A DNA stretch of 64,000 nt, from the NCBI GenBank assembly GCA_016184105.1, contig JACPDI010000040.1, positions 1-64,000 on the forward strand, written 5' to 3'. This document shows, in pieces, positions 2,468 through 7,694 of this stretch; within the stretch, counting starts at the first letter, position 1, and each line of letters begins with the position of its first letter. The translations under genes and the position numbers were made by a program. The DNA is from Acidobacteriota bacterium (GTDB taxonomy: Bacteria > Acidobacteriota > Vicinamibacteria > Vicinamibacterales > 2-12-FULL-66-21). Under the pieces are notes generated by a model. The model ran no database searches. It saw only the letters and a program-made list of their open reading frames with translations, and was not told the origin of the DNA.

Positions 2468-4969
2468 ATGCCAGTCCATACCGACGCTGAACCCGCCCCA
2501 CCGCTAGGCGCGCTTCACCTCATTGGTCACGGCGAGGCGTTCGGCTGGCCCGGCCTCGAGCCCCGCTGGGCACCTGGCGCCAAGCAAGGCGTGGGGACGG
2601 CCCGTTCCGACGGATCCCGCGTCTGGTTCACGATTGCCGAGGGCGTCCTCACCGAGATCTTCTATCCCTATGTCGACGTCGCCAACTCGCGCGATCTACA
2701 GTTCCTGGTGACCGACGGCGAGACGTTCTTTCACGAGGATCGCCGCGACCTCCGGCACACGGTCAGCTATGCCGATCAGCGCGCACCCGCGTACCTCGTC
2801 GCCAGCGTCGACCCACGCGGCGATTACCTCCTCTCGAAGATCATCATCTGCGACCCCGACGCGGACGCGGTGGTGATGCGGGTCCGCTTCGAGCCGCTGA
2901 CGGAGCGGGCGAACTCGTATCAGCTCTATCTGCTGTTCGCGCCCCAGATCGGCAACCGCGGTTACGGCAATGCCGCTCGGGTTGTGGGCTGCGGGTCGCA
3001 TCGATTCCTTGTCGCATCGAGGGACAAGGTCGTCGCTGCGGTTGCCGCTTCGGTGGGATTCCGTAGGGCGTCCGCGGGTTTCGTGGGCCATTCTGACGGC
3101 TGGCAAGACCTCCACGGTAATCTCCGGATGGATTGGACGTTCGCCACGGCGACCGACGGCCATGTCGCATTGACGGGCGAGATCGATCTGCGCAAGCACA
3201 GGGACTTCAGCGTGGCCGTGGCTTTCGGCCACACGGACGAGGACGCGTGTCGCGCTGCGCTGGAGTCATCGCATAAACCCTCCGCCGATCTGCTGGCGCG
3301 GTACGCCGGCGAGTGGCATCGCTGGTGCGCGGGCCTTGCGGATCTCCGCCGCGAAGCGCGGGATGCGGGGCGCACGTTCTGCACGGGCGCGATGGTGCTG
3401 CAGATGCATCAGGACAAGACGCACGCCGGCGCCGGTGTGGCGTCACTCGCGATCCCGTGGGGAGAGTTGGCCGGGGACGCCAACGCGGGCGGCTACCATC
3501 TGGTCTGGCCGCGCGATCTCTACAAGACGGCCATGGGGTTTCTCGCGATCGACGACGCCGGCTCGGTCCTGCGCATCCTGCGATATCTCGAGCGCACGCA
3601 GGCCGCGGACGGTCACTGGCCGCAGAACTTCTGGCTCGATGGCACCCCGTACTGGCAGGCCGTGCAGCTCGATGAAACGTCGTACCCGATCATTCTCGCG
3701 TGGCGCCTCTCCACGCTCGGAGCCATTCCGGCCGGCGAGACGATCGAGATGGTGCGCCGTGCCGCCGCGTATCTGCTCCGGAACGGTCCGGTCACCGAGC
3801 AGGAGCGCTGGGAAGAGAACAGCGGCTTTTCGCCCGCCACCATCGCGGCAGTTGTCGCCGCACTTATCTGCGCGGCCGAGCTCCTGGACGGGTCGGGCGG
3901 CCGCCGGGATGTGGGGTATCTGCGCGAGATTGCTGATGCGTGGAACGCGCAAATCGAGCGCTGGACGTACACGCAGTGTAGCGCGCTCCTGCCCGGCCAT
4001 CCCGAACACTACGAGCGAATCGCGACGATCGCTCCCTCGGCGCTCGATCCCTTGGACGCAGAGTGCCGCGTGTTTCTACCGATCCAGAATCTGCCACCGT
4101 CAGCGCAGCCTTCCATCTCGCAGTGCTGTGTCATCGACGGCGGCTTCCTCGACCTGGTTCGCTTCGGCCTGCGGGCTGCCAACGATCCGCACGTGCTCAA
4201 GACGCTGGCCGTCTATGACGCCGTGTTGCGGGTCGACACGCGCGTTGGCCCGGTGTGGCATCGCTACAACTACGACGGATATGGAGAGAAGGCCGACGGT
4301 TCGCCGTACGATGGCACAGGCATCGGTCGAGGATGGTCATTGCTGACTGGCGAGCGCGGACAGTACGAGCTCGCGGCAGGCCGATCGGCAGACCTGCACA
4401 TCGAAGCGATGGAACGATTCGCGAACGATGGCGGCATGATTCCCGAGCAAGTGTGGGATGCGGACGATGTGCCCGAGCGAGGGTTACGAAACGGGAAGGG
4501 CACCGGCTCGGCCACGCCGCTCGTGTGGGCGCATGCCGAGTACTTGATGCTGCTTCGCTCGAAGCGCGACAGGCAGCCGTTCGAGCGTGTGGAGCCTGTG
4601 TACGAACGCTTCGTGCGCCAGCAGCAGCGCTCGATGCTCCAGATCTGGCGCTTCAACTTGCCTGTGCCGACGATCGCGGCGCATGAACGGCTTCGATTGC
4701 AGGTCGACGCGCCCGCTATCGTCCACTGGAGCGCAGACGGCTGGATAACAGTTCACGACACGCCAACGGAGCCGACCGGCTTCGGCGTCCACGTCTTTGA
4801 CTTCCCGCGAGATGCGTACACGGGAAGCGACCTCGTCTTCACGTTCTACTGGCCGGAGGCCGACCGTTGGGAAGGTCGTGACTTCGTCGTGACGCTGCGT
4901 GGCGACGAAGAAGACGTGAATGCCGCTGAAACGCGCGCGGCCGATGCCGAACTGAACAATCGTTCATGA
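2468..4969 (+). CDS. Glycoside hydrolase family 15 glucoamylase-like enzyme
   Basis: 833 residues from the ATG at 2468; an in-frame ATG at 2432 adds a basic, non-conserved dozen residues. GH15 enzymes release glucose from the non-reducing end of alpha-glucans with inversion. An N-terminal beta-sandwich of about 280 residues precedes an (alpha/alpha)6 barrel. The barrel carries WPRDLYKTAMGF, the acid region RWEENSGFS (Glu449/Glu450) and the base region MIPEQVWD (Glu660), then a C-terminal beta domain after about 700. This is the bacterial glucodextranase/glucoamylase arrangement. No signal peptide is seen, so it probably acts in the cytoplasm on glycogen or malto-oligosaccharides. Neighbours (mer genes, IS remnant) do not suggest an operon. 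Confidence 0.85.
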   Translation: MPVHTDAEPAPPLGALHLIGHGEAFGWPGLEPRWAPGAKQGVGTARSDGSRVWFTIAEGVLTEIFYPYVDVANSRDLQFLVTDGETFFHEDRRDLRHTVSYADQRAPAYLVASVDPRGDYLLSKIIICDPDADAVVMRVRFEPLTERANSYQLYLLFAPQIGNRGYGNAARVVGCGSHRFLVASRDKVVAAVAASVGFRRASAGFVGHSDGWQDLHGNLRMDWTFATATDGHVALTGEIDLRKHRDFSVAVAFGHTDEDACRAALESSHKPSADLLARYAGEWHRWCAGLADLRREARDAGRTFCTGAMVLQMHQDKTHAGAGVASLAIPWGELAGDANAGGYHLVWPRDLYKTAMGFLAIDDAGSVLRILRYLERTQAADGHWPQNFWLDGTPYWQAVQLDETSYPIILAWRLSTLGAIPAGETIEMVRRAAAYLLRNGPVTEQERWEENSGFSPATIAAVVAALICAAELLDGSGGRRDVGYLREIADAWNAQIERWTYTQCSALLPGHPEHYERIATIAPSALDPLDAECRVFLPIQNLPPSAQPSISQCCVIDGGFLDLVRFGLRAANDPHVLKTLAVYDAVLRVDTRVGPVWHRYNYDGYGEKADGSPYDGTGIGRGWSLLTGERGQYELAAGRSADLHIEAMERFANDGGMIPEQVWDADDVPERGLRNGKGTGSATPLVWAHAEYLMLLRSKRDRQPFERVEPVYERFVRQQQRSMLQIWRFNLPVPTIAAHERLRLQVDAPAIVHWSADGWITVHDTPTEPTGFGVHVFDFPRDAYTGSDLVFTFYWPEADRWEGRDFVVTLRGDEEDVNAAETRAADAELNNRS

Positions 4970-5443
4970 ATCGAGCTGCGTGGCCGTGACAGACCGCAAA
5001 TCTTGCAAGCAGGGTCAAGCCTCGCGCCCAGCCCCCAGGCCCGGACGCCCGTCCCAAGCGCGACGGTCACGGCCACCTGGCAATTCGCGATCTTCCCGCG
5101 CGCCCCACAGTACTGCCGCGCGACGCCGACCGAGGCCGTGCCCTGTTTCGGAAAGCTCGTGCCGTCGAGAATCAGGATGCCCGTGCGCTTCCGGAACCAC
5201 CGCGCGAACTCGCTTCCAGAGCGATTCGGCGTCCCACAGCGCATGCGTGATGAAATGCTGGAACGCCTGATAGGTGCCAGGTCAGCAAACGCCGCAGCCA
5301 CGCACTCGCCGTGCGATCCAGCACTGCGATGCAGCGTGGCGGAACTGTGAAAAAAGTACAATGACCTCAAAAGTGATCACTCGCGGATTCCCGCAGGAAT
5401 TCGTTAAAGTGACAAAGTAGTACGAGGGTCAGGGTCAGAAAAG
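4970..5443. other. Intergenic stretch with IS remnant
   Basis: Apart from the decayed IS701-type transposase piece (about 5045-5276, minus strand) I see no gene in this stretch. The last 70 bases form the leader of the selenoprotein candidate; a GGTCAGGGTCAG direct duplication lies at 5427-5438 before its ATG. Confidence 0.5.
5045..5276 (-). pseudogene. IS701-type (DDE) transposase remnant
   Basis: Read on the minus strand, one frame gives TYQAFQHFITHALWDAESLW and then KRVRAVVPEA. A second frame continues with GILILDGTSFPKQG, then SVGVARQYCGARGKIANCQV and AVTVAL. Both are hallmarks of the IS701-family transposase core; the Asp of LDGTSFPKQG is the first DDE acid. The two segments are joined by a frameshift near 5190. 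The N-terminal third and the rest of the catalytic domain after TVAL are missing. It is a dead fragment of an insertion sequence. It marks past mobility at the junction between the mercury/glucoamylase segment and the housekeeping genes. Confidence 0.75.
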
Positions 5444-5911
5444 ATGAGCGAGAGGACGTTCCGCGCGGCGTCGCCGTTTTCGTTACCGGACAACCGCGGC
5501 GTCGTTCACACGCTCGAGGAGTTCCTGCAGCGCGGCCCCGTGCTGCTCGCCTTTCACCGCGGCACGTGGTGACCGAATTGCCGGCGCCAGTTCGGCGCTC
5601 TTGCACACAACAGCGCGGCCTATCTCGAGCGGGGCGTCACGACGGTTGCAGTCGTCGCGCAGAAATCGAGCGCCGTCGTGAATTTCCTCAACGCCAACCC
5701 GCTGCCCTTCCACGTGCTGATAGACGAGTCGCGCGACGTCCTGCGCGCGTACGGCGTGTGGCACCGCGTGGGGATCGATGCCTGGAACATCGCCCGCCCC
5801 GCGCCGTTCCTGATCGCGCGCGACAGGCGCGTGGTGAGGAGGTTCGCGGCGACACGGCAGGATCAGTTTCCGAGCCACGCGACAATCCTCGCCTGGCTCG
5901 AGGCTCTATGA
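5444..5911 (+). CDS. Peroxiredoxin-like selenoprotein (TGA read as Sec43)
   Basis: From ATG 5444 to TGA 5909-5911 there is one frame of 155 residues if the in-frame TGA at 5570-5572 is read as selenocysteine. The active site is then FHRGTW-U-PNC-R, a UxxC motif (Sec43, Cys46). The thioredoxin fold continues with VTTVAVVAQKSS, PLPFHVLIDES, LRAYGVWHRVG and ARPAPFLIARD. Known cysteine homologues of this AhpC/TSA-like family carry Cys exactly at this place (GTWCPNC). The family reduces peroxides or disulfides through this pair, probably in the cytoplasm since no signal peptide is seen. Codons after TGA are fully conserved in character, which argues against decay. A SECIS-like hairpin follows. The alternative is a simple Cys-to-stop mutation. 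selA, selB and selC are not in the window. It lies just before, and convergent with, superoxide dismutase. Confidence 0.8.
5570..5605 (+). promoter_or_regulatory. Candidate bacterial SECIS element
   Basis: Directly after the TGA (5570-5572), GCGCC (5584-5588) can pair with GGCGC (5594-5598) around a five-base loop AGTTC. TGC (5579-5581) can pair with GCA (5603-5605) below an internal loop. The apical loop begins 17 bases past the TGA and has G at its second position followed by T. This matches the known bacterial rule: a short stem whose loop lies about 16-37 bases downstream with an early G (GU contacts SelB). A competing stem CCGAA/TTCGG (5573-5577 with 5590-5594) is also possible. Confidence 0.6.
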
Positions 5912-5932: not shown

Positions 5933-6550
5933 CTACCGCCCGAAGCGCGCCGCGACCGCCTCCCAATTCACGACGTTCCACCACGCGCCGCAGTAGTCCG
6001 CGCGGCGGTTCTGATATTTCAGGTAGTAGGCGTGCTCCCACACGTCCAGCCCCATGACGGGCTTCTTCCCCTCCATCATCGGGTTGTCCTGGTTCGGCGT
6101 GCTCTCGATCGCGAGCTTGCCGCCGGCATCCACCAGCCAGGCCCAGCCGCTGCCGAAGCGCCCGAGCGCCGCCTTGTTGAACTGGTCCTTGAACGCGTCG
6201 AACCCGCCGAAGGTCGAGTCGATGGCATCGGCCAGCGCGCCCTTCGGCCCGCCGCCCGCGTTGGGCGCCATGATTTCCCAGAACATCGTGTGGTTCACGT
6301 GGCCGCCGCCGTTGTTGCGCACCGCCGTCCGGATGTCCTCGGGCACCGAGTTGATGCCGCGCACCAGGTCGTCAACCGACTTCCCCGACAGCTGCGGATG
6401 CTTTTCCAGCGCGGCGTTCAGGTTGGTCACGTACGTGCCGTGATGCTTGTCGTGATGAATCCGCATCGTCTGCTCGTCGATGTGCGGCTCGAGGGCGTTG
6501 TACGCGTACGGCAGCGGGGGCAATTCGAAAGGCACGGGCAGCTCCTCCAT
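5933..6550 (-). CDS. sodA: Superoxide dismutase, Mn/Fe family
   Basis: 205 residues; converts superoxide to hydrogen peroxide and oxygen. Metal ligands are visible at His32 (MRIHHDKHH), His87 (GHVNHTMFW), Asp169 and His173 (DVWEHAYY). The GSGWAWLV and GGGHVNH surroundings favour the manganese type, but the metal cannot be settled from sequence. No signal peptide, so cytoplasmic. The start is ATG 6550 ([17 protein letters not shown]), with GAGG upstream in a repeated CTCAAATTC-type tract. A longer frame back to 6646 adds non-family sequence that overlaps nadA. It lies ten bases downstream of nadA on the same strand. The selenoprotein candidate is convergent, so two oxidative-stress enzymes sit tail to tail. 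Confidence 0.95.
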
Positions 6551-6551
6551 C

Positions 6552-6572
6552 CTCAAATTCTCAAATTTCAAG
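6552..6572. repeat. CTCAAATT short tandem tract
   Basis: Two near-perfect 8-base units (CTCAAATT CTCAAATT) sit between nadA and sodA. Related tracts occur at 32660-32684 and 47709-47727. The stop of nadA lies inside the tract. Confidence 0.5.
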
Positions 6573-7694
6573 CATCCGATCGAGCGCACGCTTCGCCTGC
6601 GACCTGATCGGCTCCGGCACCACGATCTCGTTGTGCACGCGGCCATCCACGAGGCCTTCGAGCACCCACAGCAGGTGATTCGGCGACACGCGGAACATCG
6701 TCGAGCAGAGACAGCCGAACGGATCGAGCGTTTCGACGGCCTTGTCCGGCGCCACTTCCTGCGCCAGGCGCGACACCAGATGGATCTCGGTGCCCACCGC
6801 CCACACCGTGCCCTTCGGGCTGTTCTTCACCGTGCGGATGATGTGTTCCGTCGAGCCGCTGTCGTCGGCCGCCTGCACGACGTCCCACGTGCACTCCGGG
6901 TGCACGATGACGCGACCTTCCGGATGCCTCCGGCGGAACGCTTCGATCTGCCTCGTGTTAAAGCGCGTGTGGACCGAGCAGTGCCCCTTCCAGAGCAGCA
7001 GGCGCGCGTTGGCCACCGCTTCCGGCGTGAGCCCGCCCCAGATTTCGTTCGGATCCCACACCACCATCCGATCGAGCGGCACGCCCATCTTGTACGCCGT
7101 GTTCCGGCCCAGGTGCTGGTCCGGCAGCATGAGCACTTTCCCGCCGCGGTCCCACGCCCACTTCATCACGCCCGCCGCGTTGGTCGACGTGCAGACGACG
7201 CCCCCCCGCCCGCCGCAGAACGCCTTGATGGCCGCGCTGGAGTTGATGTAGGTCACCGGCACGATCCGATCGTGGTCGATGCCCATCTCCTCCAGCTCGC
7301 GCCAGCACATCTCGAGCTGATCGGGCGCCGCCATGTCCGCCATCGAGCAGCCGGCCGCCAGGTCCGGCAGGATGACGCGCTGGCGGGGGGCGCTGATGAT
7401 GTCGGCGCTCTCCGCCATGAAGTGCACGCCGCAGAAGACGATGAACTCGGCCTCGCCGCGGGTGGCCGCCTCGCGCGCGAGCTTCAACGAGTCGCCGGTG
7501 TAGTCGGCGAACTTGATGACCTCGCTGCGCTGGTAGTGGTGGCCGAGGATGACGACGCGCGAGGCCAGCTTCGCCCGCGCCGCGACGATGCGCCGGTCCA
7601 TTTCCTCGTCCGAAAGGCCGAGGTATTGCGGCGGGAGCGGCTGGCGCTCGCCGATGCCGGCTTTCTCGTGTTCGATCAGGAGCTCGATGTCCAT
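6561..7694 (-). CDS. nadA: Quinolinate synthase NadA
   Basis: 377 residues. Condenses iminoaspartate with dihydroxyacetone phosphate to quinolinate in de novo NAD synthesis, using a [4Fe-4S] cluster. The three internally repeated domains are visible: [12 protein letters not shown] and [11 protein letters not shown] early, [17 protein letters not shown] and [14 protein letters not shown] in the middle, and [22 protein letters not shown] and GCLCSTMF late. The conserved cluster cysteines fall in the VCTSTNA, HPEC and GCLCSTM segments. Length is normal for the longer NadA class. The start is ATG 7694. nadB and nadC are not in this window. It depends on Fe-S supply from the SUF operon at 23.5-30 kb. 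Confidence 0.95.

Follow-up and report, generated by a model that had tools for sequence, protein, structure and literature searches.

The window analysed here, the whole stretch of 64,000 nt, contains a frame that codes for 155 residues and closes with a terminal TGA; its sole internal TGA is followed by 112 sense codons (Table 1). The original prediction described this frame as open save for that one codon, and this was borne out by translation, as was the position of the TGA at the active-site motif, where it gives a UxxC (U43-P-N-C46). The start ATG precedes the TGA by 42 codons, and the candidate ATGs of the orthologues do so by 42–48 codons. The read-through protein has Pfam AhpC-TSA as its top match (79 bits, cut-off 26), together with Redoxin (70 bits, cut-off 26.6), in agreement with the claim that a peroxiredoxin-like fold is kept over the codons downstream of the TGA; the predicted fold is Bcp/PrxQ-like. 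In an alignment of 19 sequences, the active-site residues are all intact in the window copy. A supposed first intact ATG at 5678 turned out to be an error: the codon at 5678–5680 reads GTG, and beyond residue 1 the read-through protein contains no Met. Ordinary annotation would break this predicted selenoprotein gene in two.

Table 1. The predicted selenoprotein gene and its surroundings, with positions in the window.
Feature	Position	Strand	Details
Transposase (DDE_5) remnant	4846–5370	−	Upstream of the gene, between it and a GH15 glucodextranase-like gene
Predicted selenoprotein gene, 155-residue UxxC Prx-like redoxin	5444–5911	+	ATG 5444, stop TGA 5909–5911
Predicted Sec-encoding TGA, residue 43	5570–5572	+	GTW-U-PNC; TGA in 18/18 orthologues and 13/13 named loci
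Cys46 codon TGC, putative resolving Cys	5579–5581	+	Second half of UxxC; invariant in 19 sequences
SECIS-like hairpin	5583–5599	+	6-bp stem GGCGCC/GGCGCU (5583–5588/5594–5599), loop AGUUC (5589–5593)
Fe/Mn superoxide dismutase	5933–6646	−	Convergent neighbour; Pfam Sod_Fe_N, Sod_Fe_C; common to several relatives

Conservation of the in-frame TGA and the Sec machinery

The search of 193 genomes of the class yielded 18 orthologues with 51–61% identity, all belonging to the same order. Since all of them share the TGA at the same codon, its presence is far beyond chance. The scan of 84,980 species genomes found 13 loci, all with TGA, in named Acidobacteria/Vicinamibacteria/Vicinamibacterales MAGs, a set that largely overlaps with the 18 orthologues. 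The Cys form was absent from both the orthologues and the scan, whose patterns included FHRGTWCP with Cys codons and whose sensitivity was limited by exact-pattern matching. TGC at 5570 in related genomes, or a genome devoid of Sec machinery, had been proposed as refutations of a selenoprotein; neither was encountered, the relatives always having TGA and never TGC.

Across the phylum, each of the 20 best matches has one TGA. The first TGA-free matches among the retrieved loci scored about 80 bits: a peroxiredoxin of another kind (AFSGTC) and GGWCPFC proteins. In more distant families, Sec occurs in FxRGTWUPxC, FYRGxWUPxC or GGWUPFC contexts. From these sequences, the subfamily is apparently Sec-only and restricted so far to Acidobacteriota MAGs. 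No viral relatives were found in the IMG/VR scan, and the plasmid records gave distant homologues only, none above 80% of the query. Another family of the same class (f18; loci L044–L049, L051 and L053) has a further type of Sec redoxin, GGWUPFC, whose N-terminus resembles a signal peptide.

In a codon comparison, pN was much lower than pS both before and after the TGA; downstream of it, the values for the window were 0.27–0.37 for pN versus 0.47–0.67 for pS. The dN/dS downstream of the TGA was 0.14–0.21 in closer pairs. Judged by these ratios, protein-level selection persists past the TGA.

The original prediction called for selA, selB, selC and selD in the rest of the genome, and all of them were found in the source assembly (4.24 Mb, 96% complete, 69 contigs). 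This genome has selA, in two collinear pieces that share a frame (494 bits in total), selB (356 bits) and selD (352 bits; contig C12:83064-83993), and a tRNA-Sec with anticodon UCA (56.9 bits) is located on contig C47. The selD gene carries its own TGA at the catalytic site (MKKRLTDYAACAGUASK), predicting a Sec-containing SelD, so that at least two genes in the genome have a TGA at a known Cys/Sec position. No formate dehydrogenase match above the cut-off was obtained in the same genome, and a window-wide listing of further in-frame TGAs with high GC3 on both sides gave no recognisable redox-motif candidate.

Sec decoding is widespread in the order, with selA above the cut-off in 121 of 162 genomes; little discussion of Sec decoding in the phylum Acidobacteriota was found in openly searchable selenoprotein papers. 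Within the order, selA was detected in 54 of the 56 genomes with TGA-bearing redoxins versus 16 of the 28 without them (Fisher p = 1.5e-5), where "with" denotes at least one TGA-bearing match, mostly to distant homologues with the TGA position unchecked, and where the p-value overstates certainty and is only indicative because the genomes are related and not independent. Two TGA genomes had no selA: one of them (G063) has a tRNA-Sec, and its missing selA is therefore probably an assembly gap, while the other (G036) lacks both selA and a clear tRNA-Sec.

The hairpin downstream of the TGA

The bSECIS model comprises a loop of 3–9 nt, a stem of 4–16 bp, a G within the first two nucleotides of the loop, a distance of 16–37 nt from the UGA and an MFE <= -7.5 (PMC13188914). 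The hairpin in the window agrees with this published model, its loop beginning 16 nt after the TGA and the MFE being -13.1 kcal/mol for 5570–5614, although it is statistically weak for the window alone. Its stem length is marginal against chance (p 0.052), and the folding energy shows no excess over synonymous recodings, being ordinary for the composition. The SECIS-like hairpin that had been predicted after the TGA is thus present and of the expected shape, but taken by itself it is weak evidence (p ~0.05), because the region is so GC-rich. No SECIS match was found in Rfam for this region. A single sub-threshold CRISPR-repeat match in Rfam was rejected as noise.

As the folding energy gives no signal in the window, the SECIS argument relies on the test of shaped hairpins across homologues. 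The mean SECIS-like stem was 6.88 bp in 42 different Sec homologues versus 4.67 (sd 0.24) in synonymous recodings, a strong excess whose certainty is likewise overstated given the relatedness of the genomes. The stems in four Cys homologues were only 1–4 bp. Most orthologues share the hairpin GCCRGUUC-GGU-GAACUGGC, which is broken in the window, where a neighbouring hairpin is found instead. The same replacement seems to occur in four genomes of one family (f9), in which the 5´ codon CGU accompanies GAC. Pair covariation is weak within the 19 orthologues, because coding constraint fixes most columns.

Fold, active-site layout and alternative readings

The AF2 model of the read-through protein (pLDDT 88.9, pTM 0.86) was compared with known structures by Foldseek, giving TM-scores of 0.78–0.89 for Bcp/PrxQ and 0.69–0.74 for ResA. 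Profile alignment to Aeropyrum Bcp (2cx3) pairs U43 with the Ser of SPVC, where peroxiredoxins have Thr/Ser, and C46 with the Cys of this motif. In the alignment to ResA, U43-C46 falls on the CxxC, with Sec at the first Cys. The TxxU layout of Sec peroxiredoxin, with Thr three positions ahead of a peroxidatic Sec, is not the one found here. Since Sec43 occupies the Thr/Ser position and Cys46 the peroxidatic one, the protein is assigned to the UxxC Prx-like thiol:disulfide oxidoreductase type and not to the TxxU peroxiredoxins. The original prediction of a Sec peroxidase or disulfide reductase is supported as regards Sec; of its two activities, disulfide reductase is the better fit, as the alignments match Sec to the first Cys in the ResA CxxC and not to the peroxidatic Cys.

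Reviews list a Prx-like thiol:disulfide oxidoreductase (PF00578, UxxC/UxxU) with WP_010940744.1 as its representative (PMC13188914 Table 1), and related Prx-like selenoprotein types have been described (PMC9312934, PMC1088965, and "Prx-like 1" in PMC2398784). The features shared with these proteins, as seen without an alignment to WP_010940744.1, are the AhpC-TSA domain, Sec in a thioredoxin-like UxxC, the single-domain organisation and a hairpin just downstream. The gene studied here differs in its FHRGTWUPNC signature, in its apparently Sec-only occurrence and in the mog-moeA link of its relatives. Its sequence features place it within the UxxC Prx-like selenoproteins already known, as part of an apparently Sec-only subfamily of Vicinamibacterales, and it is an expected addition to a known family. 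In the open papers covered by a limited literature search, neither the Sec-only distribution nor the moeA link seems to have been described.

No NCBIfam model covers the gene above its cut-off. All 19 members match the SelL-related redox protein model (NF040769) over the same UxxC/CxxC region, but the window copy reaches 45.4 bits versus a curated cut-off of 120. The likeness to peroxiredoxin Q/Bcp (2cx3/4gqf, 3hjp, 5epf) extends to the fold and the peroxidatic position of Cys46; however, Sec replaces the catalytic Thr/Ser, and identity is only 17–23%. ResA (1st9, 3c71) shows ~29% identity and a TM of ~0.72, and its CxxC aligns with the UxxC, whereas the protein of the window is seemingly cytosolic (no signal sequence seen), has Sec for the first Cys and possesses a Prx-like C-terminal half.

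Taken on the sequence evidence, the TGA at 5570–5572 is almost certainly a selenocysteine codon and not a lesion, and the gene would encode a selenoprotein. The points that count against this reading are the marginal hairpin of the window, the broken shared hairpin, the longest end branch, the lost operon context and the missing promoter match (see the next section for the last three). A private nonsense mutation or assembly error in a pseudogene would be in keeping with the fragmented assembly (69 contigs) and with a window copy that has diverged more than any other in its clade and lies beside a transposase remnant. However, it is refuted by the same-codon TGA shared by 18 independent MAGs from several families, and with selection acting on the downstream protein and an intact active site it is very unlikely. 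Lineage-wide decoding of TGA as Trp or Cys would produce a similar picture, namely a conserved gene with a TGA in frame, but the gene itself ends in TGA, which is therefore also a stop, and the genome has selA, selB, selD and the UCA tRNA-Sec, as well as a Sec at the SelD active site, leaving hardly any probability for such a recoding. It is also highly improbable that the locus yields two products, a 42-residue peptide ending at the TGA and a separate protein starting from GTG 5678: ordinary gene callers would report something similar, yet the active-site helix is encoded between these two codons, and conservation is unbroken across the TGA.

A serious rival concerns the chemistry of the predicted selenoprotein, which could be a true peroxidase (peroxiredoxin) with Sec43 or Cys46 reducing hydroperoxides. 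The best TM-scores (up to 0.89, for Bcp/PrxQ), the top Pfam match to AhpC-TSA, the alignment of Cys46 on the peroxidatic Cys and the presence of SOD as convergent neighbour all speak for a peroxidase, which is a real, if lesser, possibility. It is opposed by the presence of Sec where peroxiredoxins have their catalytic Thr/Ser, by the UxxC, which is the thioredoxin/ResA layout, and by the reviewed Sec peroxiredoxin, which has TxxU instead (PMC13188914). A thiol:disulfide oxidoreductase working through a selenenylsulfide cycle is moderately favoured by the active-site alignments.

The product of the gene would be a Prx-like selenoprotein with a single domain, located in the cytosol. During its translation, SelB–Sec-tRNA(Sec) and the short hairpin just downstream would guide the ribosome to insert Sec at UGA 5570. 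Sec43 may then attack a disulfide or a peroxide as a selenolate, with Cys46 resolving this Sec as a selenenylsulfide that would be reduced by a thioredoxin-type partner.

Genomic neighbourhood

In the 13 named loci without exception, mog (MoCF_biosynth) and moeA lie directly upstream of the redoxin gene on the same strand. In five of these loci (L055, L060, L061, L062 and L064), one base is common to the stop codon of moeA and the start codon of the redoxin (TGATG), an overlap that suggests translational coupling within a coupled operon. In the genome of the window, mog-moeA is located on another contig (C32), unlinked to the gene, which has the transposase remnant upstream instead. Within its clade, the window copy has the longest terminal branch (0.47), so that it may have undergone some relaxation since the move. 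No match to a sigma-70-like promoter was found upstream of the window gene.

Because the redoxin follows mog-moeA in all 13 relatives, with overlapping starts in five, it is tentatively proposed, as a rather unlikely role, that it acts together with Mog and MoeA in the metabolism of the molybdenum cofactor, where it might for instance keep a thiol or dithiolene intermediate reduced. Many UxxC redoxins have no known role, and for this one the moeA linkage offers a concrete functional clue.

Elsewhere in the window, positions 25–2390 carry mercury genes: merT (MerT) at 25–348, the start of an HMA domain (GMTCDHC, in the frame of 745) and a mercuric-reductase-like flavoprotein at 897–2390. The latter two are in different frames, and a frameshift or assembly error near 890–900 seems to split an HMA-MerA fusion.
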